From assembly GCA_030041495.1 (NCBI GenBank), contig JASHNT010000141.1, positions 62,001 through 126,000 on the forward strand: DNA of 64,000 nucleotides. The letters run 5' to 3'. Source of the DNA: Bryobacteraceae bacterium (GTDB lineage Bacteria; Acidobacteriota; Terriglobia; Bryobacterales; Bryobacteraceae). The notes under the pieces are model-generated. The model was given only the letters and a program-made list of their open reading frames with translations, had not been told where the DNA came from and ran no database searches. The position numbers and the translations under genes were made by a program. The stretch's first letter is position 1, and each line of letters begins with the position of its first letter. Below are positions 1-11,200 of the stretch, one piece after another.

Positions 1-738
1 CGGAATCCGCACCATCTCGCGAGTGCGGCGCATGCCGTTCAGGCCGAACACCGGGTCCTCGTAATAGTCGTTGCGGATATCCTCGATCGCCTGGCCGAAG
101 CGAATGGCCTGCTCGGTGGACCAGACCGCATTGGGATCGAAGCGGAAGGAATCGCCAGGAAACGCCGCGGTCAGCGCTCGATATGCTTCCAGCTCAAAAT
201 CGGGATGAAACACACCGCCCTTGAGCTTATGAGTGGTGAATCCGTAGCGCTGTTTCATCGCGCGCGTGGTCTCGACCAATTGATCGATGGTTCGCACTTC
301 GCCGGCTCCGGTGCGGGGATTTGGATAGCGGAAGAAACAATAGGTCGCAAAGGGCACTCGATCGCGCAAGCGCCCGCCCAGAATCTCGCTCACCGGCACT
401 CCCCATGCCTGCCCCAAAATATCGAGGCACGCAAATTCGAGCGCGGCGAGAACCTGGGTGCGATTGTTGTACAAGGACGCGGTGGGGTTCGCGATCAGGA
501 ATCGCATCTCCTCAAGCCGAGCCGGATCGCGGCCGACTAGATAGGCCTTCATCGCCCGGAACGTTGCTTCGGCCGACTCGCCTCCGCCGCCCATCTCGCC
601 CAGGCCGATCAGGCCGTTGTCGGTCTCCACTTCGACGATAGTGCGCACGAGACGCCCCCAATGGCAGCCATTGGCGTGGCGCAGAGGAGCTTCCAGAGGA
701 ACAGTGACCGTGGTGGAGCGAATATCGCGAATTTGCAA
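1..738 (-). CDS. Glucarate dehydratase-like enolase-superfamily enzyme (truncated by window edge)
   Basis: The frame is open from about 738 to base 1, so 246 residues of the N-terminal part are visible and the C-terminus lies outside. It reads as an enolase-superfamily acid sugar dehydratase: an N-terminal capping domain ([12 protein letters not shown] near residue 12), then the barrel with a KxK motif (THKLKGG, K171/K173), a metal-ligand Asp in FDPNAVW (D201) and Glu in YYEDP (E227). The order and spacing match the glucarate dehydratase group, which dehydrates D-glucarate or L-idarate to a 5-keto-4-deoxy acid. The start is uncertain: I chose TTG at 738 because the following residues fit the family N-terminus, but no good Shine-Dalgarno site precedes it. 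It diverges from the GH3 operon with about 45 bases between starts, so sugar-acid use linked to plant polymer degradation is plausible. Confidence 0.8.
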
Positions 739-783
739 GCTAAGGTCAATCGTACAACAATGGACCTTTGGAGGCCCCTCCAA

Positions 784-3291
784 ATGTTCCGATCCGCCTT
801 CGTTTTTCTGATCAGCGCAGGGGTATGGGCGCAAACTCCGGCGTATTTGAATCCCGATCTGCCGCCGGAGCAGCGCGCCGCAGATCTGGTTTCGCGCATG
901 ACGCTCGAGGAAAAGGTTCAGCAGATGGAAGACAACTTCGGCGGACGCAATGGCGGCGAGCCGGGAATTCCGCGCCTGAACATCGCCCCGTACGATTTCT
1001 GGAACGAAGCGCTGCATGGAGTCGCGCGGGCCGGGCAAGCAACTGTTTTCCCCCAGGCTATTGGTCTCGCCGCGAGTTGGGACACGGACATGATGCATCG
1101 CATCGCCGACGTGATCTCGACCGAAGCTCGCGCCAAATACAATGAAGCCCAGCGCGATAAGGATTACAGCCGCTATCACGGCCTCACCTTCTGGTCGCCG
1201 AACATCAACATTTTTCGCGATCCTCGCTGGGGCCGCGGCCAAGAAACCTACGGCGAGGACCCGTTTCTCACGGCGCGGATGGCCGTTGCCTTCATTAAAG
1301 GGATGCAGGGCGACGATCCGCATTACTTCAAAGTGATCGCGACGGCGAAACACTTCGCCGTGCACAGCGGACCGGAATCCACCCGTCACACGGTTGATGT
1401 GAAAGTGAGCACTCGCGATCTCGAAAGCACCTATCTGCCCGCATTTCACGCCGCCGTGGTCGAAGGCAAAGTCGATTCCGTCATGTGTGCCTACAACAGC
1501 ATTGACGGCATGCCCGCGTGCGCCAATCAGACTCTGCTCGAAAACTATTTGCGCGGCAAGTGGGGATTTCAGGGCTACATCGTCAGCGATTGCGGCGCGG
1601 TGACCGATATTTTCCGCGGCCACAAATATGAGCCCGATGCACCAGCGGCGGCGGCTGTCGCCGTGAAGACCGGCACGGATTTTGCCTGTGACACGCAATA
1701 CGCCAACTTGCCGGAAGCCGTTAAGCAGGGGCTGATCACGGAAACTCAGATCAATAAATCTTTGGAGCGATTGCTCGTCGCCCGAATCAAGCTGGGCATG
1801 TTCGACCCTCCGGAGCGCGTGCCGTTCTCCAAAATTCCTTATTCCGAAGTCGATTCCGCGGAGCACCGCAAGCTCGCCCTGGAAGCAGCGCGCAAGTCGA
1901 TCGTGCTGCTGAAGAATCAGAATCTGATTCTGCCGGTGAAGGCTTCCATCAAGAAGATCGCCGTAATCGGACCCTCGGCGGATGACGTTGATGCGTTACT
2001 CGGCAATTACAACGGATTTTCATCGCATGAAGTTTCGCCGCTCGAAGGCATAGAGAAGCAGTTCAAAGGCAAGGCCGAGATTCATTACGCCTTGGGCGCG
2101 ACATACACAAGCCAAACGGCGGCGATGGTTCCGGTAAGTGCGCTCAGCGGGATCACGGCGGAGTACTTCGACAATCCGGATTTGCAGGGTCAGCCGAAGC
2201 TGAAGCAGACGGAGCCGCGACCCTTTTATCAACCGGGTCCGCTAGACCCAGCTCTGAAGGCCGCCGGTATCCCGGATAGGGTTTTTTCGATTCGCTGGAC
2301 CGGGACGTTAAGAGCCCCGGTGACCGGCGGGTACTTGATACCAGCGCCAGCCGCCGGCAGAACGCAGCTTTTTCTGGACGACAAAGAAGTGAACGGGGCC
2401 GGGCCGGCGGCACTGAATTTGGAGGCGGGGCACGCGTACAAGCTGCGCGTCGACTTTCGGGCTGCGAACGCAGGAAACGCACTGCGGCTGAGGTGGATTC
2501 CTCCGGAGGCTCCGCTCCTCACCGAAGCTGTCGATGCAGTCAGAAACGCCGACCTAGCCATCGCCTTCGTGGGCTTGAGTCCGAATCTTGAGGGAGAGGA
2601 GATGAACATCGACATCCCCGGCTTCTCCGGCGGTGACCGCACCAGCCTCGATTTACCCGAGCAACAGCAAAAATTGATCCAAGCGGCCATCGGCACCGGC
2701 AAGCCCGTCGTGGTCGTTCTCACCAGTGGCAGCGCGATCGCCGTGAACTACGCTGCCGAGCACGCCGCGGCGCTGCTTGAAGCTTGGTACAACGGCGAAG
2801 AAGCCGGAACCGCCATCGCGGAAACGCTTGCCGGCGTGAACAATCCCGGCGGCCGTCTGCCGGTCACGTTCTATAAGAACGCCGGTCAATTGCCTCCTTT
2901 CGATGACTATGCAATGCAGAATCGGACCTACCGCTACTTCAAGGGCGAGCCTCTGTACACCTTCGGCTTCGGCCTCAGCTACTCCAAGTTCAGTTACTCC
3001 AATTTGCGCGCGCAGCGTAATGGCGACGGCTCGAAGGTGAGTGTCCGCGTCAAGAACGACTCCAGCCGCGATGGCGACGAAGTGGTCCAGCTTTACATCA
3101 ACGGCGCAGGCAGTCCGGACGAGGCCATTCGCGATCTGCGCGGATTTGAACGTATCCACCTGCGCGCCGGCGAATCACGAGAGGTAACCTTCACGCTCAA
3201 TGCAGACCAAGTGCCCAAGGCAAAAACGAAAATCAGCGTCGGCGGAGGGCAGCCGCTCGGCAACGTGGCCCGCGTGGAGGGAACCCTATAA
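784..3291 (+). CDS. Secreted GH3 beta-xylosidase/beta-glucosidase with PA14 insert
   Basis: An 835-residue glycoside hydrolase family 3 enzyme. An ATG at 784 follows GGAGG (770-774) and opens a Sec signal peptide (about residues 1-18, ending at VWA); an upstream in-frame ATG at 760 lacks this. The GH3 N-domain carries [14 protein letters not shown] and the nucleophile motif YIVSDCGAV (D269). A PA14 domain interrupts the C-domain at about 455-575 ([11 protein letters not shown]), and a fibronectin III-like domain closes the protein at about 740-806 after [12 protein letters not shown]. This layout is typical of GH3 beta-xylosidases/beta-glucosidases that release terminal sugars from oligosaccharides; the exact substrate cannot be read from sequence. 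It is the first gene of an apparent operon, with only two bases before the first tannase-family gene, suggesting joint attack on feruloylated or phenolic glycosides. Confidence 0.93.
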
Positions 3292-3293
3292 AA

Positions 3294-4814
3294 ATGCGCA
3301 CTCTGACACTTCTCGCGATTCCGATCTTCAGCGCGCACCTGTGGGCAGACGCTTGCGTCGATCTGCAATATAAACTCGATGTTCTGCTTCCGGCGGGCAC
3401 GACTGTGACTCTGTCCAGGACCATCCCGGCGGGAGCCTACACCGCTCCCGGCAACGGCAAGCAAGCGCCGCCGAACTTTAGCGATCTGCCGGCATTCTGC
3501 CGCGTCGCGGTGACGCTCAAACCCACCAGTGATTCCGACATCAAGATGGAAGTCTGGATGCCGATCGCAAACTGGAACGGCAAGCTGGAGGGCAACGGCA
3601 ACGGCGGCTGGACCGGCTCCATCAATCCCGCGACCTTGGCGGCGGGGCTGCGCCGCAACTACGCCACCGCGATGACCGACACCGGCCACGAAGGCGGCAG
3701 CGGCAGCTTCGCGCTGGGTCATCCGGAAAAGCTGATCGACTTCGGCTACCGCGCCACGCACGCCATGACTGTGGACGCCAAAGAGATCATCAAGGCTTTC
3801 TACGGCCGAGAGCCGGGCGTCTCTTACTTCAATGGCTGCTCTGCCGGGGGCAAACAGGGATTGACCGAAGCGCAACTGTTCCCGGCGGATTACAACGGCA
3901 TCATCGCCGGCGCCCCCGGCAACAACTGGACGCACATGATGGCGCAAATCGTTTGGGTGGCGCAGGCAGTGCACAAAAGCGATGCCAGCTATATTCCTCC
4001 CGCGAAATACCCCGCGATTCATCAGGCGGCTCTGGCGGCTTGCGATGCAACGGACGGTCTCAAAGACGGCTTGATCGAAGATCCCACCAAATGCAAATTC
4101 GATCCCAAAACCATTCAATGCAAGCGCAAGGACGATGCCGATTGGTGCCTCACCGCGACGCAAGTGGAAGCCGCGCGCAAGATTTATGAACCGCTGCTCA
4201 ATCCCCGCACCAAGCAGCAAATCTACCCCGGATTCGAGCCGGGCAGCGAACTCGGTTGGGGGCAATTGGTCGCCGGTCCCACTCCCACAACATTTGCCAC
4301 GGATTTGTTTAAATACGTGGTGTTCAAGAATCCGGACTGGGATTACAAGACACTGAACTTCGATAGCGACATTGAGCTGGCGGACACGACCGATAACGGC
4401 GTCAATAACGCCACCGATCCCAACCTTACGGATTATTTCGGGCGCGGCGGGAAGCTCTTGCAATACCACGGCTGGGCCGATCAACTGATCGCGCCCCTCA
4501 ACAGTCCCGAATATTACATGAGCGTGGAAAAGGCAGTCGGCGACTCCGCCAAGGTCAACGCCTCTTACCGGCTGTTCATGGTCCCCGGCATGAGCCATTG
4601 CCAGGGCGGCGAAGGACCTAGCAACTTTGATATGCTCACGGCCTTGGAGCAGTGGGTGGAGCAGGGCAAAGCGCCGGACCGGATCTTGGCGTCGCACATG
4701 ACCAGCGGCAAAGTGGACCGGACCCGGCCGCTGTGCCCATACCCGCAAGTGGCAGTCTACAACGGAAAGGGGAGTATAGACGATGCGCAGAACTTCACTT
4801 GTAAACTACGTTAG
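3294..4814 (+). CDS. Tannase/feruloyl esterase family protein, copy 1
   Basis: A 506-residue secreted serine esterase of the tannase/feruloyl esterase B family. A signal peptide (MRTLTLLAIPIFSAHLWA) is followed by the esterase domain. The catalytic set has the family's CS-D-HC layout: C182-S183 in NGCSAGGKQG, D396 in YHGWADQ, and H435-C436 in GMSHCQGG, the two cysteines expected to bridge the active site. Known members cleave ester bonds of gallic or hydroxycinnamic acids; the actual ester here is not known. Its start lies two bases after the GH3 stop. The last 32 bases overlap the start of copy 2. Copies 2 and 3 are clearly related paralogues, so this is a tandem array. Confidence 0.93.
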   Translation: MRTLTLLAIPIFSAHLWADACVDLQYKLDVLLPAGTTVTLSRTIPAGAYTAPGNGKQAPPNFSDLPAFCRVAVTLKPTSDSDIKMEVWMPIANWNGKLEGNGNGGWTGSINPATLAAGLRRNYATAMTDTGHEGGSGSFALGHPEKLIDFGYRATHAMTVDAKEIIKAFYGREPGVSYFNGCSAGGKQGLTEAQLFPADYNGIIAGAPGNNWTHMMAQIVWVAQAVHKSDASYIPPAKYPAIHQAALAACDATDGLKDGLIEDPTKCKFDPKTIQCKRKDDADWCLTATQVEAARKIYEPLLNPRTKQQIYPGFEPGSELGWGQLVAGPTPTTFATDLFKYVVFKNPDWDYKTLNFDSDIELADTTDNGVNNATDPNLTDYFGRGGKLLQYHGWADQLIAPLNSPEYYMSVEKAVGDSAKVNASYRLFMVPGMSHCQGGEGPSNFDMLTALEQWVEQGKAPDRILASHMTSGKVDRTRPLCPYPQVAVYNGKGSIDDAQNFTCKLR

Positions 4815-6321
4815 CCTGGCCGCGGCCCTCGGAATGGCCACGGTGGTGTCCGGGGCGACTTGCGAAAGCTTGAGCTCGCTTAAATTGGCCGGCACCACAA
4901 TCACCGCCGCGGAATCCGTGGCCGCGGGAGCGTTCACTCCACCCGCTCCGCCGGCGGGAAGAGGCCGCGGAGCTCGCGGCGGCGGAGGCAATCCCTACGC
5001 GGATCTTCCTGCTTTCTGCCGGGTCGCGGCGACCGTGAAGCCCTCCAGCGATTCCGACATCAAAATCGAAGTATGGATGCCCGCCAGCGGCTGGAACAAC
5101 AAGTTCGAGGCCGAAGGCAACGGAGCCTGGACCGGATCCATCGCGGAAAATACGCTCGCCGGCGCGCTCCGTCTCGGCTATGCGACTTCCATGACCGATA
5201 CCGGTCACGAAGGCGGTAGCGCCAGCTTCGCATTGGGCCATCCGGAAAAGCAGATCGATTTCGGCTATCGCGCCGTGCATGAGCTCGCCGTCCAGAGCAA
5301 GGCAATTATCACGGCATTCTACGGCCAAGCTCCCAAGTACTCCTATTGGAACGGCTGCTCGGCCGGCGGCAAGCAGGGGTTGAAGGAAGCGCAGATGTTC
5401 CCTGCCGATTTCGACGGTATCATCGCAGGCACGCCGGTCAATGATTGGGTGGGGCGCTCGCTGGGCGCTGTTTGGTTCGCGCAGGCCACGCATGAAAGCG
5501 AAGGCAGCCTGATCCCGCGCGAGAAGTTGGCCGCCGTTCACAAGGCCGCTCTCGATGCTTGCGATGCGCTTGACGGCGTCAAGGACGGCGTGATCGAAAA
5601 TCCCGAGACGTGCAAGTTCGATCCGGTAACCATCCAGTGCAAGGGCGCCGATTCTGACGATTGCCTGACTCCCGCGCAGGTCGCCACCGCGCGCAAGATC
5701 TATTCCGGCGCGATCAACCCGCGTACCAAGGAAGTGATCTTCCCGGGCCTGGAGCCTGGCAGCGAGCTCGGATGGGGCACGCAGGCCGGGCCGAATCCGT
5801 TCACTCCGGGGCTCGACGAATTCAAGTATGTCGTCTTCAAAAATCCTGACTGGGACTACAAGACCTTTAACTTCGATTCGGACGTAACCGCGGCCGTGAA
5901 AGCCGACAACAACATGATGAACGCCATGGATCCGAATCTGAAGGCCTACTTCGATCGCGGCGGAAAGATCCTGCAATATCACGGCTGGGCGGATCAGCAG
6001 ATGTCGCCGGGCAACAGCCCCAAGTACTACAAGAGCGTACTGGCCAAGCTGGGCGGACCCAGCAAGGTCATGAATAACTACCGCCTGTTCATGGTTCCGG
6101 GTATGGGGCATTGCGGCGGCGGCGAGGGCGCTACCGATACTTTCGACAAGCGCGCGATTCTGGCAGCCTGGGTGGAGCAGAACAAGGCTCCGGACAAGAT
6201 CATCGCGTCAACCAGAGATGACAAGAAGACCCGGCCGCTGTGCCCTTATCCCGAAGTTGCGGTTTACAACGGAAGCGGGAGCACCGACGATGCCGCGAAC
6301 TTCTCCTGCAAAGCGAAGTAG
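4783..6321 (+). CDS. Tannase/feruloyl esterase family protein, copy 2
   Basis: A 512-residue paralogue of the preceding gene. It has a signal peptide (to about residue 24, VVSGA), a Gly/Arg-rich loop near residues 55-68, and the CS-D-HC catalytic set: S193 in NGCSAGGKQG, D404 in YHGWADQ and H443 in GMGHCGGG. The ATG at 4783 is preceded by AAGGGGAG and lies inside the previous gene's conserved C-terminal coding sequence for DDAQNF, one base out of frame; the overlap is 32 bases. This makes translational coupling likely. Substrate is presumably a phenolic ester, but not defined. Compared with copy 1 it has an extra glycine-rich insertion before the first conserved block (DLPAFCRVAA). Confidence 0.93.
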   Translation: MRRTSLVNYVSLAAALGMATVVSGATCESLSSLKLAGTTITAAESVAAGAFTPPAPPAGRGRGARGGGGNPYADLPAFCRVAATVKPSSDSDIKIEVWMPASGWNNKFEAEGNGAWTGSIAENTLAGALRLGYATSMTDTGHEGGSASFALGHPEKQIDFGYRAVHELAVQSKAIITAFYGQAPKYSYWNGCSAGGKQGLKEAQMFPADFDGIIAGTPVNDWVGRSLGAVWFAQATHESEGSLIPREKLAAVHKAALDACDALDGVKDGVIENPETCKFDPVTIQCKGADSDDCLTPAQVATARKIYSGAINPRTKEVIFPGLEPGSELGWGTQAGPNPFTPGLDEFKYVVFKNPDWDYKTFNFDSDVTAAVKADNNMMNAMDPNLKAYFDRGGKILQYHGWADQQMSPGNSPKYYKSVLAKLGGPSKVMNNYRLFMVPGMGHCGGGEGATDTFDKRAILAAWVEQNKAPDKIIASTRDDKKTRPLCPYPEVAVYNGSGSTDDAANFSCKAK

Positions 6322-7816
6322 GACGCTCTGCGCCTTTTGGGCAACTCTCGCGATTCCGGCCTTTGGCGCGGCTTCGTGCGAGAGCCTTAGCTCGCTCGCG
6401 CTCAAAGAAGGTACCGTCACACTGGCTCGGACCGTCCCCGCGGGAACCTTCCAAGCGCCGGGGGCCCGCGCAGGCGGCCGAGGAGCCGCGGGCTATGCGA
6501 ATCTGCCGGCCTTTTGCCGCGTCGCGGCGACTCTCAAGCCATCGAGCGATTCCGAAATCAAAATCGAGGTCTGGATGCCGGAGGCCGCTTGGAACCAGGC
6601 CCTGGAGTCCGTTGGCAACGGCGCATGGGCCGGGACAATCTCCTATCCCGCTATGGCGACGGCTTTGGGTGCGGGGTATGCGGCGGCCAGCACCGATACC
6701 GGCCACACCGGCAACAGCGTTCGCTTCATCGACGATCATCCGGAGAAAGTGGTCGATTTCGCTTATCGCGCCGTGCACGAGATGACGGTCGCGGCCAAGG
6801 CTATCGCGGCCGGTTACTACGGCCAGGCTGCGAAGCATTCGTATTTCAACGGATGCTCCACCGGGGGCCGGCAAGCTCTGACGGAGGCTGAGCGCTACTC
6901 TAACGATTACGACGGCATCATCGCCGGCGACCCCGACGTGGCAGCTTCGCGCGTCCATGCCGCGCAGCTCTATGCGGCGCAGGCCGCGCACTCGAGCGAC
7001 GCCAGCTACATTCCTCCGGCGAAATATGCGGCTCTACACGCTGCGGCTCTGGAAGCTTGCGACGCACTGGATGGCGTTAAGGATAGGCTTATCGGCGACC
7101 CGGAACGGTGCAAATTCGATCCCCAGGGTCTTTTGTGCAAAGGCGCGGATGAACCCACTTGCCTGACCCCCGCGCAAGTCGAGACGGCAAAAAAGACTTA
7201 CGCAGGGGCGAAGGCGGGCAAGGAAGTGTTGTGGGGTCTCGATCCCGGCAGCGAAGCCGGCTGGGCCTCGCTCTCCGGTCCGCAGCCGTTGGGAATCGCG
7301 CTCGAAACGTATCAGTATCTGGTCTACAAAGATCCCAAGTGGGACTACAAGACGCTCGACCCGGCCAAGGACGTGCCCGCCGCGGACAAAGCTCTCGGCC
7401 CCATCGGTATGGACGCCTCCAACGCCGACCTGCGGCCATTCTTCTCGCATGGCGGCAAGCTGATCATGTATCACGGCTGGGCCGATCCCGGTATTCCGCC
7501 GGGATTCAGCGTGGAGTACTACAAGAACGCAGTCGCCAAGACCGGCCCGAAAAAAGCAGGGGATCAAATCCGCCTGTTCATGGTCCCTGGCATGGGGCAT
7601 TGCGCCGGTGGCGACGGTCCCAACACCTTCAACTCCATGGCCGCGCTAGCGCAATGGGTGGAGCAAAGGAAGGCTCCCGATGAAATCATCGCTTCGCACG
7701 CCACGCGTGGGCAGGTCGACCGCACGCGGCCACTCTGCCCGTATCCGCAAATCGCCGTGTACAAAGGCTCCGGCAGCACGGATGAAGCTGCGAATTTTTC
7801 GTGCAAGGCGCGGTAG
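6290..7816 (+). CDS. Tannase/feruloyl esterase family protein, copy 3
   Basis: A 508-residue third paralogue in the array. I place the start at ATG 6290 because it yields a signal peptide (basic N-region MPRTSPAKRSRT, then a hydrophobic stretch to AFGAA) and because the site is equivalent to the start of copy 2; an in-frame ATG 24 codons earlier lies deep in copy 2. The catalytic set is S190 (NGCSTGGRQ), D399 (YHGWADPG) and H437 (GMGHCAGG). It differs from copies 1 and 2 in replacing SAGG by STGG and in lacking the block around INPRTK, hinting at different substrate preference. It overlaps copy 2 by exactly 32 bases, the same as the copy 1/2 overlap. Its end abuts the convergent gene at 7817. 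Confidence 0.92.
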   Translation: MPRTSPAKRSRTLCAFWATLAIPAFGAASCESLSSLALKEGTVTLARTVPAGTFQAPGARAGGRGAAGYANLPAFCRVAATLKPSSDSEIKIEVWMPEAAWNQALESVGNGAWAGTISYPAMATALGAGYAAASTDTGHTGNSVRFIDDHPEKVVDFAYRAVHEMTVAAKAIAAGYYGQAAKHSYFNGCSTGGRQALTEAERYSNDYDGIIAGDPDVAASRVHAAQLYAAQAAHSSDASYIPPAKYAALHAAALEACDALDGVKDRLIGDPERCKFDPQGLLCKGADEPTCLTPAQVETAKKTYAGAKAGKEVLWGLDPGSEAGWASLSGPQPLGIALETYQYLVYKDPKWDYKTLDPAKDVPAADKALGPIGMDASNADLRPFFSHGGKLIMYHGWADPGIPPGFSVEYYKNAVAKTGPKKAGDQIRLFMVPGMGHCAGGDGPNTFNSMAALAQWVEQRKAPDEIIASHATRGQVDRTRPLCPYPQIAVYKGSGSTDEAANFSCKAR

Positions 7817-8179
7817 CTACGCTTCTCGCACCAGCACTGTCAGAATCAGCGATACGACGCTTACGATAATCGCGCCCAAAAATGCGGGCAGAAAACCGTC
7901 GACATAAAATCCGACGTGGAACCAATCCACCGCGATCGCCGATGCCAGCCACAGCGCGAATCCGTTGATCACCAGGGAAAACAAACCCAGCGTCAGGATG
8001 ATCAAGGGGCAGGAGAGCAGCTTCAGGATCGGCCGCACTGTGGCGTTGATCAATCCCAGGATCACCGCCATCGCCGCGAACGCGGTCCATCCATCAGGAC
8101 GCACACGAATTCCGGGCACCAGCTCCGCGGCAATGAACAACGAGAGACTGGTGATGACCCACCGCAGTAAGAGTTTCAT
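7817..8179 (-). CDS. Four-TM membrane protein of the phage holin superfamily IV/YvlD type
   Basis: A 120-residue integral membrane protein with four predicted hydrophobic segments (about residues 5-22, 32-52, 58-80 and 92-115). The pattern MAVILGLINATVRPILKLLSCP followed by LGLFSLVINGFALWL, shortened here, is characteristic of the PF04020 family, called phage holin family IV or YvlD and widespread on chromosomes without any phage. The biochemical role is not established. No phage genes are nearby, so calling it a lysis holin is not justified. Its stop codon directly abuts the stop of the convergent tannase-family gene. An upstream gene on the same strand begins 30 bases away, as a separate unit or in readthrough. 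Confidence 0.75.
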   Translation of the reverse strand: MKLLLRWVITSLSLFIAAELVPGIRVRPDGWTAFAAMAVILGLINATVRPILKLLSCPLIILTLGLFSLVINGFALWLASAIAVDWFHVGFYVDGFLPAFLGAIIVSVVSLILTVLVREA

Positions 8180-8209
8180 GAGACCCCCGGCGTCCTCCGA
8201 GTAAAAGAT

Positions 8210-11200
8210 TCAATCCGATGCCACTGCGTTTTGGGAAGGCGAGCCATCCGAAGAGACTCGCACCGACTCCGAATTGAGCAGCGCGGCGCGGATCGGGCTT
8301 TCACGCGGTAGGGAATCGGCCAGCTCCCGCAGAATCGCCGTCGCTTGTGCGCGATGATGGGCGGCCGCCGCACCATCGCCCGTAGAGCAGTAGAGTTCGA
8401 AAGCAGTCGCGTGCAATCGCCACGAGACGGCCGGCGCTGGATTGCGGTGCAGCAGGGAGAATCCACGACTTAAAGCCTCCCCGGCACGGTCCCAGTCCTG
8501 GCGGCGAATCGCCACGCAGGCCTCCAGACGCTCGGCCGCCGCTTTCACCGCCGGATCCGCCGTTGACCGCGCCGCTTCCATGAACGCGGCCGCCTCGGCT
8601 TCCGCCTCGGCCACGGAGCCCTGTTCCAGCAGAGCCAGGCTCAATCCCATGCGCGCGATCATCCGCCAGTACCAGTCCATAAAAAAGCGCGGACGTAGAT
8701 CCCGGCCGCAGGCTTTGGTGAAGAGATTCACGGCATGCTCCGCGGAGCCAGTGCCCAACGCGGCAAACGCGGCGGTAATCATCGCCATCGTACGCACCTG
8801 GCCAGCAGGTTCCTCGTTGTGCGCGGACAACAGCGCCTCGGCTAGCTGAGCCGCACCCTGATAATCGCACGCCTGTAATTGGAGCCACGCCGCCAGCGCT
8901 TGAAAGATTTCGCGCCACGGTGCGTTGCCGTTGTTCTCCGCCGCGCTCTGCGCCGCCGTAATGACCCGCTGGCACTCCCCCCAGCGGCCCAAATGCAGCA
9001 GCGCGAGCGCCATTGAAGAATGAGCGGAAAGATATACCACCAGGTTGTCGGTTTCAAGCGAACTGGAAATTCCAGCCTCCGCCGTGCGGCATGAATCCTC
9101 ATAGCGGCCCAGAGCCCACTCTACGTGCGCGTACAGGATTTCGTAGTAAGCCGGCATGTCGTTGCTCAGAGCGCGGATACGCTGCCGCGCTGCTTCGCAG
9201 ACATCGGCGTCTTCCGCGCTTAAGCCGCTGGTGACGATGCGCCAGCAGGCGGCCAGCATTTCCGCGCGAGCCTCCAGCAGCGGATCGTCGTGCGTGCGGC
9301 TCACCTCCAGCGCGCGTTCGCAGACCGCGATGCAGCGGTCCGGGTCACGGAACGCGAGCACTCTCGCCAGCCGCGTCAGCGCGTTCACCTGCGCAGCCTT
9401 GAGACCCGCTTGCGCCGAAAGTTCCGCGGCGCGCTGGTCCACGTCGCCGGACTGCTCCATCTCGCCCTGCGCGTACAGTGCGTTGCTAATCCGTTCCAAA
9501 ATCTGAATTTCGAGCGCGGCACGGGATTCCGGCGCGATGTGCGGAAGCAACTCCAGCGCCTGCCGCAGCAATTCGACGGATTCCGTGTGTGCGTAGCGGC
9601 GCGCGGCGTTGCCTGCCGTCAGGATCAGATAATGAATGGCGCGGCGATAGTCGTGCCCAGCTTGAAAATGGGAAGCCAGCTCCGCGGCCACGGACGCATC
9701 GCCTGCGTCAATTAAGCCCTCCATCCGCCTGGCGATCTGCAGGTGAAACTGCCGCCGCTGGCTGGCGGGCAAATGTGCGTCCAGGGCTTCGCGATACAGG
9801 TTGTGCCGGAATTCGTACTGCGCGGAGGCTGACCCGCCGGGCAACTCCTGCGCGCCGGAGCGCAGCAGCAACTGCCGGCGCAGCGCCAAGCCTTCGCATA
9901 TTTCTTCCACCCGGCTGGGATCGTCGGCCAGCGCGGCGCTCACCGCCCAGGCCGAAAAGCGCCTGCCGGCGACGCTTGCGGCGCGCAGGACGCTCTGCTC
10001 CCGCGCATCCAGTTCCTCGATCTGCGCTTCCAGCATCTGCCGCAGAGTTTCCGGGATGTCGGAATCCAACCGGTCCAGGCGTTCCGTGGAAAGCCACCCC
10101 CCGTGCTCTTCGCGAATCAGCCCCTTCTCGATCAGTTGCTCTACCAGGGCCACCATAAATAGCGGATTCCCGTCGGAGCGGCGGTGGATCACGCTGGCCA
10201 GCAGCCTGGCCAGTCCGCTGGCTGCAAACCTCGTAGTGAGAAACTCCTCAACCTCGCCTTCGGTCAGCCGCTCCAGGGCGATTTCGCGGCACAAGCGGTG
10301 CACCAGCAGGTCCTGCTTCAGCGATTTCAACGGACTCCCCGAAAGAATCACCTCCACCGGACGGTACGTCGCCACCAGCATGAGTTTGGCGGCCGCTCTG
10401 CGGCGGCCCAAGGCGGAGATTAAATCCAAAGTCGAGCTGTCCACCCAATGCAAATCTTCCAGGATCAGGATCAGTGGCTCTTGCGCGGTCAGGCTTTCGA
10501 TGGCTTCGCAGAATTCGCGCACCATGCGTTCCCGCGTCGCGCCCAGAATCTCGCGTTGCAGAGCTTCGCGCCGCTCCGCTTTGACCGCGCCCGGAAACTG
10601 CACCAGCCATGCGGGCGCGAGCCGCGCCAGAGTTTCCACCACCGTTTCCGAATCCGCTCCAGCCATCCAATGCCCCAGCGCGTCCAGCACCGGATAATAG
10701 GCTTCCTTGCCCCCAAACCCCTCCATGGATTGCCCCCGCGCCACGCGCGATCCGCGCGCTTCGCATTGACACTGGAAGGCGTCAGCCAGCGTAGTCTTGC
10801 CAATCCCCGGTTCGCCCGTCACGAAGACAATCTGGCGGCTACCGCCCTCGGCTGCCTCAAGATAGGCGTTGAGCGCTTCAAGGGCGCGGCGTCGCCCGAC
10901 TACGTTGCCGCCAAGCGGTGTCCTTTCCGTCCGCCGTCCATTCGCAACCGCCTCGTCAGCGGTCACATCTCTTACCGGCGCGATGAACTGGTAGCCGCGC
11001 TTCGGATAGGTCGCGATGAAACGAGGGTTTTTGGGCGGATCCTCCAGCACCCTCCGGATCTCCAGGATGTACTTGCGGAGAACTTCCGGTTGGACGTATG
11101 TGTCCTTCCATAACCCATCCAGGATCTGCTCCTGGGTCACCAGCCGTCCGGCGTTTTCGACCAGCAGTTGGAGAAGCGAAAAGACCTTGGGAGGCAGCAG

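Follow-up and report, generated by a model that had tools for sequence, protein, structure and literature searches.

The 64,000-nucleotide stretch of DNA analysed here, from a soil acidobacterium of the Bryobacteraceae (GenBank assembly GCA_030041495.1, contig JASHNT010000141.1, positions 62,001 to 126,000; hereafter the window, and contig C101 of genome G000 in comparisons where G-numbers are genomes and L-numbers are loci) contains a run of three tandem tannase-family genes, copies 1 to 3, of types A, B and C. At both junctions of this run the conserved C-terminal tail of the upstream enzyme probably supplies the whole +1-frame start of the next gene, namely a Shine-Dalgarno sequence, an ATG and a signal-peptide n-region, and from these elements we infer initiation at the embedded codons. 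All three genes lie on the forward strand and match Tannase (PF07519), as judged by open reading frames (ORFs) and a profile search (Table 1). The coordinates and frames of the original prediction, which was made from the window's letters, were reproduced, including a common stretch of exactly 32 bases at each junction with the frames offset by one base (+1).

The tail motif is GSxDDAxNFxC, present in the window as GS(I/T)DDA(Q/A)NF(T/S)C. Both downstream ATGs arise in the +1 frame of the second Asp codon (GAT followed by G), and the Gly-Ser codons (GGG AGY) also spell GGGAG, 8 bases 5' of each ATG. In the +1 frame the residues A-x-N-F-x read M-(R/P)-(R/K)-(T/I)-S, and the earlier proposal, in which the conserved tail read in a shifted frame yields both the start and the n-region (M-x-R/K-T/I-S) of the following gene, is borne out in the window and in a sister genome, and recurs in other genomes. 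Two to five Lys or Arg residues followed by a hydrophobic stretch were found after the embedded start in all eight embedded-start proteins tested, the n-region of the YceI protein described below also containing one acidic residue, unlike the others. Each pair of genes is on the same strand with 32 bases shared, above the 6-base minimum for a long phase-1 overlap. The two overlaps are equal because the tails are homologous, the same codon is used and the same number of residues follows it; this equality follows from tail homology and is no independent coincidence. What goes beyond chance is the conserved embedded Shine-Dalgarno codon and the repeated use of the same codon. In other lineages, where the tail is shorter, the overlap from that codon is 26 or 29 bases.

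The sister genome G008 (Bryobacteraceae isolate JOPF104, contig JASHRP010000052.1) belongs to the window's genus and encodes proteins 79–81% identical to those of the window, with copy 1 partial where the contig end cuts the gene. Both of its junctions have GGGAG, the 8-base gap and the same ATG, and an extra ATG three bases earlier at junction 1 makes the overlap there 32 or 35 bases. Between the window and G008 the same codon is used at 53–61% of identical residues. Gly GGG is kept at 3 of the 27 sites having GGG in either genome, two of the three being the Shine-Dalgarno sites (p = 0.0085), so that GGG is conserved at both junctions versus 1 of the 25 remaining sites (three gene pairs, that of copy 1 being incomplete in G008). 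Within the two overlaps the upstream frame shows 7 silent changes, one of them affecting the stop codon, together with 2 replacements, against 0 silent changes and 8 replacements in the downstream frame (p = 0.002). Since the silent changes fall in the upstream frame and most of the replacements in the downstream frame, selection, as read from this one comparison, mainly holds the upstream tail and lets the n-region that the next protein has borrowed drift, and the start signal seems to be held in addition to the tail. The further claim that tail conservation by itself preserves the next start did not survive comparison. The second-Asp ATG is present in only 25 of 128 homologous tails (a set not selected by ATG pattern, from which 3 of 131 had been dropped), and GAT is kept at 24 of the 55 Asp sites having GAT in either the window or G008. 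Because Asp can be encoded by GAT or GAC, the motif offers a start, but holding the ATG needs a synonymous choice of its own.

Table 1. Features of the tannase-gene run and its surroundings, in window coordinates
Feature	Position	Strand	Evidence or remark
GH3 glycosidase (GH3 N and C, PA14, Fn3-like), upstream gene of probable operon	661..3291	+	Pfam
Copy 1 (type A), Tannase/feruloyl-esterase family, signal-peptide-like N-terminus	3294..4814	+	506 aa; PF07519 397.9 bits
Embedded Shine-Dalgarno-like GGGGAG in Lys-Gly-Ser codons	4769..4774	+	8-base spacer to ATG 4783; GGG AGT also in G008
Overlap of copies 1/2, 32 bases, phase +1	4783..4814	+	sequence; also in G008
Copy 2 (type B), start embedded in copy 1	4783..6321	+	512 aa; PF07519 375.5 bits
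Embedded Shine-Dalgarno-like GGGAG in Gly-Ser codons	6277..6281	+	8-base spacer to ATG 6290; GGG AGC also in G008
Overlap of copies 2/3, 32 bases, phase +1	6290..6321	+	sequence; also in G008
Copy 3 (type C), start embedded in copy 2	6290..7816	+	508 aa; PF07519 363.1 bits
Copy 3 tail ATG at first Asp codon, without Shine-Dalgarno, absent from sister; probably no start	7782..7784	+	sequence comparison

The same codon also opens frames of genes unrelated to tannases, which appear to have borrowed it. When 399 genomes of the class were searched for tails of this pattern together with a Shine-Dalgarno-like GGRAG and the ATG, 17 sites were returned in 13 genomes, most of which open short frames only. 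In G238 the frame of a DUF1175 gene (202 bits) begins at this codon, with an overlap of 29 bases, or 32 from the preceding ATG, and GGAAG upstream; in G408 that of a methyltransferase gene (75 bits) does so with an overlap of 26 or 29 bases and GGGAG upstream. A wider search added a YceI gene (68.8 bits) in G212:C74, whose frame begins at the same codon with an overlap of 26 bases, without a Shine-Dalgarno sequence. For DUF1175 and the methyltransferase, none of the nine best other loci each (121 genomes searched for each) has a coding-strand tannase ORF in the fetched stretch (18 of 18); because these relatives lie away from tannases, the overlap in G238 and G408 is, on the loci compared, a local arrangement. 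In 17 of the same 18 loci the match begins only at residue 6–40 (L293 being poorly aligned), and the first residues of the two proteins are likely, if weakly shown, to have been replaced. The upstream tannase tails are of the usual family length, and this, together with the tannase-free relatives of the two downstream genes, favours 5' extension of the downstream gene over 3' extension of the upstream one as the presumed origin. Long +1 frames behind the ATG tails of L252, L201, L244, L233, L054 and L103 resembled embedded genes but were rejected as further cases, because they either start normally further downstream or lack a clear sign of coding.

A second hot spot lies at the conserved Cys codon, where a GTG arises in the +2 frame approximately 16–19 bases before the tannase stop. 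From Pfam matches it appears to start amidohydrolases (L102 and L129) and a beta-lactamase-family protein (L149), and it is also found in L148 and L031, both doubtful. The second-Asp ATG is the commonest out-of-frame ATG in the tails, at 85 of 174 (199 tails, a set enriched for ATG). Both hot spots, the phase-1 ATG at Asp and the phase-2 start at Cys, match the prediction of the codon-availability model, in which phase-1 ATGs come from NAT codons and phase-2 starts from Cys or Trp codons (PMC2542354). Use as a start, judged by inspection of the frames, was found for 6 of 14 tails with both ATG and Shine-Dalgarno sequence and for 3 of 71 with the ATG only, one of these being ambiguous (p = 0.0004); with the sister junctions merged, the former count becomes 4 of 12 (p = 0.007).

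In the window, GH3 and tannases A, B and C form a tight run in which the tail codons give GGGAG, an ATG eight bases on and a usable basic n-region; in the mechanism proposed, a gene for a secreted protein arriving behind such a tail could begin at the embedded ATG. The Shine-Dalgarno sequence and its distance from the ATG have a normal appearance. Fresh ribosome initiation on the embedded Shine-Dalgarno sequence would most likely operate here, and ribosomes translating the upstream gene may aid it by keeping the RNA open. Folding calculations found the RNA around junction 1 to be unusually open (z = −2.5 in the window and −2.2 in G008), and the RNA of used sites to be somewhat more open (mean z = −0.95, p = 0.03, for nine partly related sites). 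The start-to-stop distance of 29 bases is about one ribosome length, such that an upstream ribosome at the stop codon would just clear the site.

Other routes to the same arrangement were weighed against embedded initiation. In one, the embedded ATGs are unused and the true starts are other ATG, GTG or TTG codons. This is a distinctly unlikely account, for which there are an ATG 19 bases beyond the first stop (the next in-frame start of copy 2), TTG codons at +7 and +16 in G008, and in-frame upstream starts at some junctions. Against it, the copy 2 frame in the window opens just 3 bases 5' of the ATG, which is the sole start candidate before the stop, and starting later would deprive the proteins of the n-region, and copy 2 also of a large part of its hydrophobic stretch. 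Copy 3 in the window has further in-frame starts upstream (ATG at −104 and TTG at −65) and none as far as 150 bases past the stop; these upstream alternatives are missing from the sister, where the embedded starts are present and where the copy 3 frame opens only at −62, leaving the ATG at −32 as the sole start before the TTG at +16. A ribosome might instead terminate at the upstream stop and step back 32 bases to reinitiate. Short start/stop overlaps are typical of coupled genes (PMC10666635), but each site here has its own Shine-Dalgarno sequence, and the start-near-stop spacing of termination-reinitiation coupling is absent, the distance being −32; a review cites one study where coupling weakened as the overlap grew and had vanished at −25, while RNA unfolding would fit the lysis start of MS2 at −50 (PMC12548453). 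Reinitiation is consequently unlikely in our estimation.

The origin of the two junctions raises two further possibilities. That one junction was multiplied by recent tandem duplication would account for the shared family and equal overlap length, and junctions 1 and 2 are identical at 68 of 95 bases. The trees, built under LG+G4 (a simpler model) from 105 proteins and then from 50 (45 hand-picked of the 105 plus five added pieces), argue otherwise. Copy 1 (A) groups with a copy from G135 (contig QHXD01000040.1, "Acidobacteria gp5 AA63"), which belongs to another family of the same class (support 98 in the 105-protein tree and 92/91 in the 50-protein tree), and separate groups unite copy 2 (B) and copy 3 (C) with their respective orthologs from several species of the window's genus (96/93 and 100/99, 50-protein tree). 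Moreover, B and C neighbours elsewhere in the genus are gapped (G004 and G019) or overlap by 4 bases (G014). By this phylogeny the three copies are old paralogs that are not nearest one another, which is not what a recently duplicated array would present, and recent duplication is very improbable. A somewhat likelier alternative, though with the odds still against it, is that an old embedded A-C array was inherited by both lineages and that B was inserted later by recombination in the tail, both new junctions being embedded from the outset. The gene order is X-A-C in G135 and A-B-C in the window, with starts at the same codon, and the conserved tail stretch could pair. There are only two lineages, however; in G135 the A-C junction contains large inserts and offers several candidate starts, the third gene being broken, and elsewhere in the genus B and C adjoin without embedding. 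The first G135 copy (X) lies beside the B clade in the 105-protein tree and apart from it in the 50-protein tree.

Several points weigh against embedded initiation at the conserved tail. Conservation of the ATG codon between the window and G008 is by itself not significant (2 of 2 versus 22 of 53, p = 0.19), RNA openness at junction 2 of the window is ordinary (z = +0.25), and the junction records of G008 and G135 are metagenome assemblies. The methyltransferase and YceI genes of G408 and G212 have further in-frame TTG or GTG codons close by, and the ends of signal peptides diverge anyway, making non-aligning first residues weak evidence of replacement. The 199-tail set, from which 12 of 211 ORFs without the motif or C-terminus had been dropped, is enriched for ATG tails because part of it was gathered by searching for that pattern. 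In a survey of co-directional overlaps of at least 60 bases, 715 of 715 were judged to be annotation errors, many from mispredicted starts (PMC2478687); the 32-base overlaps of the window fall under the range of that survey. A coding-looking frame crosses tannase stops about as often as those of other genes in the same loci (30 of 165 versus 108 of 528), so the idea that tannase genes are overlapped more often in general was rejected, and the surplus of forced embedded starts is weak (7 of 165 versus 8 of 528, p = 0.04). Two of these seven are at the Asp codon and five are GTGs at the Cys codon, L031 among the latter five probably starting later. For both counts a crude coding filter had removed 35 tannase ORFs, and later starts were sought to 60 bases past the stop. 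Because overlaps behind tannases are no commoner overall, the tail is a preferred landing place and no driver of overlaps.

Adjacency alone does not bring embedding with it, contrary to the expectation that the overlap is kept wherever copies adjoin. Among 16 adjacent pairs in the examined loci, the second-Asp in-frame ATG is found in six, two each in the window, G008 and G135, the second G135 pair being ambiguous and followed by a broken gene; one of the other ten has a 4-base overlap and nine are spaced. Another tandem tannase pair in the window's own genome is likewise spaced. The second-Asp ATG occurs in none of the ten non-embedded pairs, too few to judge avoidance of unused second-Asp ATGs, and the first-Asp ATG occurs, unused, in four. 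The latter count bears on the copy 3 tail ATG at 7782, which the original prediction regarded as vestigial, as if another copy once followed. This ATG is formed from the first Asp codon (GAT followed by GAA), 35 rather than 32 bases from the end, with GGCAG in place of GGGAG upstream, and copy 3 of the sister reads GACGACGCA there. It was rejected as a relic start on account of the wrong codon, the missing Shine-Dalgarno sequence and its absence from the sister.

In the G135 array the overlap is 26 bases from the same codon, with no alternative start within 75 bases upstream or before the mature domain, in-frame TTG and ATG codons lying at −125 and −104. At the same locus (L078, G135 contig C559) a palindromic repeat of approximately 80 bases, recognized by eye, lies in frame at ~5925–6003 within the n-region after the embedded start, which it lengthens with the frame intact. 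The third tannase gene there (7472–8997) is broken and has further repeat-like inserts in its start region; even so, the frame from its embedded ATG runs on without a stop to where the mature domain begins. In L053 of G019 (~2230–2345, reverse-complement coordinates), a short +1 frame starts at the first-Asp ATG of a B-type tail, includes a hydrophobic stretch and ends upstream of the point where the next tannase really begins; it may represent an embedded start that has been lost. Two of the loci, L101 (CALQCC020000007.1) and L126 (CALQCC020000020.1), are titled Bordetella parapertussis, resemble Bryobacteraceae DNA and are probably from a mislabelled metagenome bin; L126 is 77800 bases long, as is contig C20 of G014, which belongs to the window's genus.

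The three enzymes themselves are conventional members of their family. PF07519 matches over the whole domain in each copy, with 363–398 bits versus a cut-off of 29.8, and C182, S183, D396, H435 and C436, within stretches aligned to 6g21, are identical in all three; these positions correspond to the catalytic Ser-Asp-His and a flanking Cys pair, with residue roles as assigned in PMC6461665. By profile and catalytic residues the copies are members of PF07519, and esterase activity on tannin or ferulate esters is predicted. They resemble MHETase and the fungal feruloyl esterases in sequence family, catalytic Ser-Asp-His, flanking Cys pair and aligned C-terminal Cys, and no novelty is claimed for the enzymes as such. 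The last Cys of the tail aligns with the last Cys of a fungal feruloyl esterase and in both lies 22 residues past the preceding Cys, the two Cys residues forming what we take to be a disulfide. Because of this aligned Cys, the tail is, as far as the alignment can indicate, conserved for the sake of the protein itself.

The start of copy 1 lies 2 bases past the GH3 stop (window 3289–3294), and the 3' end of the GH3 gene includes GGAGGG; from the short gap and this sequence, GH3 and the three tannase genes are probably one operon. A scan of 400–8400 for promoters and terminators found a number of sites not above that in shuffled sequences. Long open frames on the minus strand opposite the tannase genes (4795–6111 and 3093–4748, of 438 and 551 aa) are most likely an effect of codon composition.

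No description of start sites in tannase tails was found in the open-licence literature, among the matches listed, and what appears to be new is that a single conserved motif serves repeatedly as a start site and that, at the junctions in the window, its codons are preserved. One protein motif accounts for overlaps recurring at the same base and ties the codon-availability model to a real family, in which synonymous codons of an enzyme are apparently kept for its neighbour's start. Since one homologous codon appears to have been recruited several times, the way in which overlapping genes originate can be tested directly, and the tails of the PF07519 family call for caution in gene calling and in studies of synonymous rates. 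More speculatively, and with the chances rather against it, the family C-terminus, whose DNA is able to encode a Shine-Dalgarno sequence, ATG and n-region in the +1 frame, might act as a portable start cassette, whereby genes for secreted proteins could be plugged in or shuffled behind any tannase by tail recombination without a start of their own, selection then holding the upstream synonymous codons to the benefit of the downstream gene.

Among known systems, translationally coupled −4/−1 pairs share co-directional neighbours whose translation is probably linked (PMC10666635, PMC12548453), whereas the overlaps described here are 26–32 bases, have their own Shine-Dalgarno sequence at the window junctions and lie beyond the reinitiation range observed in the work reviewed in PMC12548453. 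The coat-lysis overlap of MS2 is similar in that the start lies well within the upstream gene, whose translation is thought to open the RNA; it differs in belonging to an RNA phage and in having its start at −50 under the control of RNA structure, compared with a start at −32 with a Shine-Dalgarno sequence (PMC12548453). A further likeness is to long phase-1 unidirectional overlaps formed by 5' extension, which were already known (PMC3887535) and which likewise combine a long overlap with a +1 start from a NAT codon, here Asp GAT, followed by G (Sabath 2008, PMC2542354; PMC3887535); the Cys-codon +2 starts seen here correspond to the phase-2 route of the same model (PMC2542354). As presented in those sources (Sabath 2008, PMC2542354; PMC3887535), the rule is statistical over all genes, whereas here a single conserved motif gives the start, the Shine-Dalgarno sequence and the n-region, and the same codon is used repeatedly, before related and unrelated genes alike.

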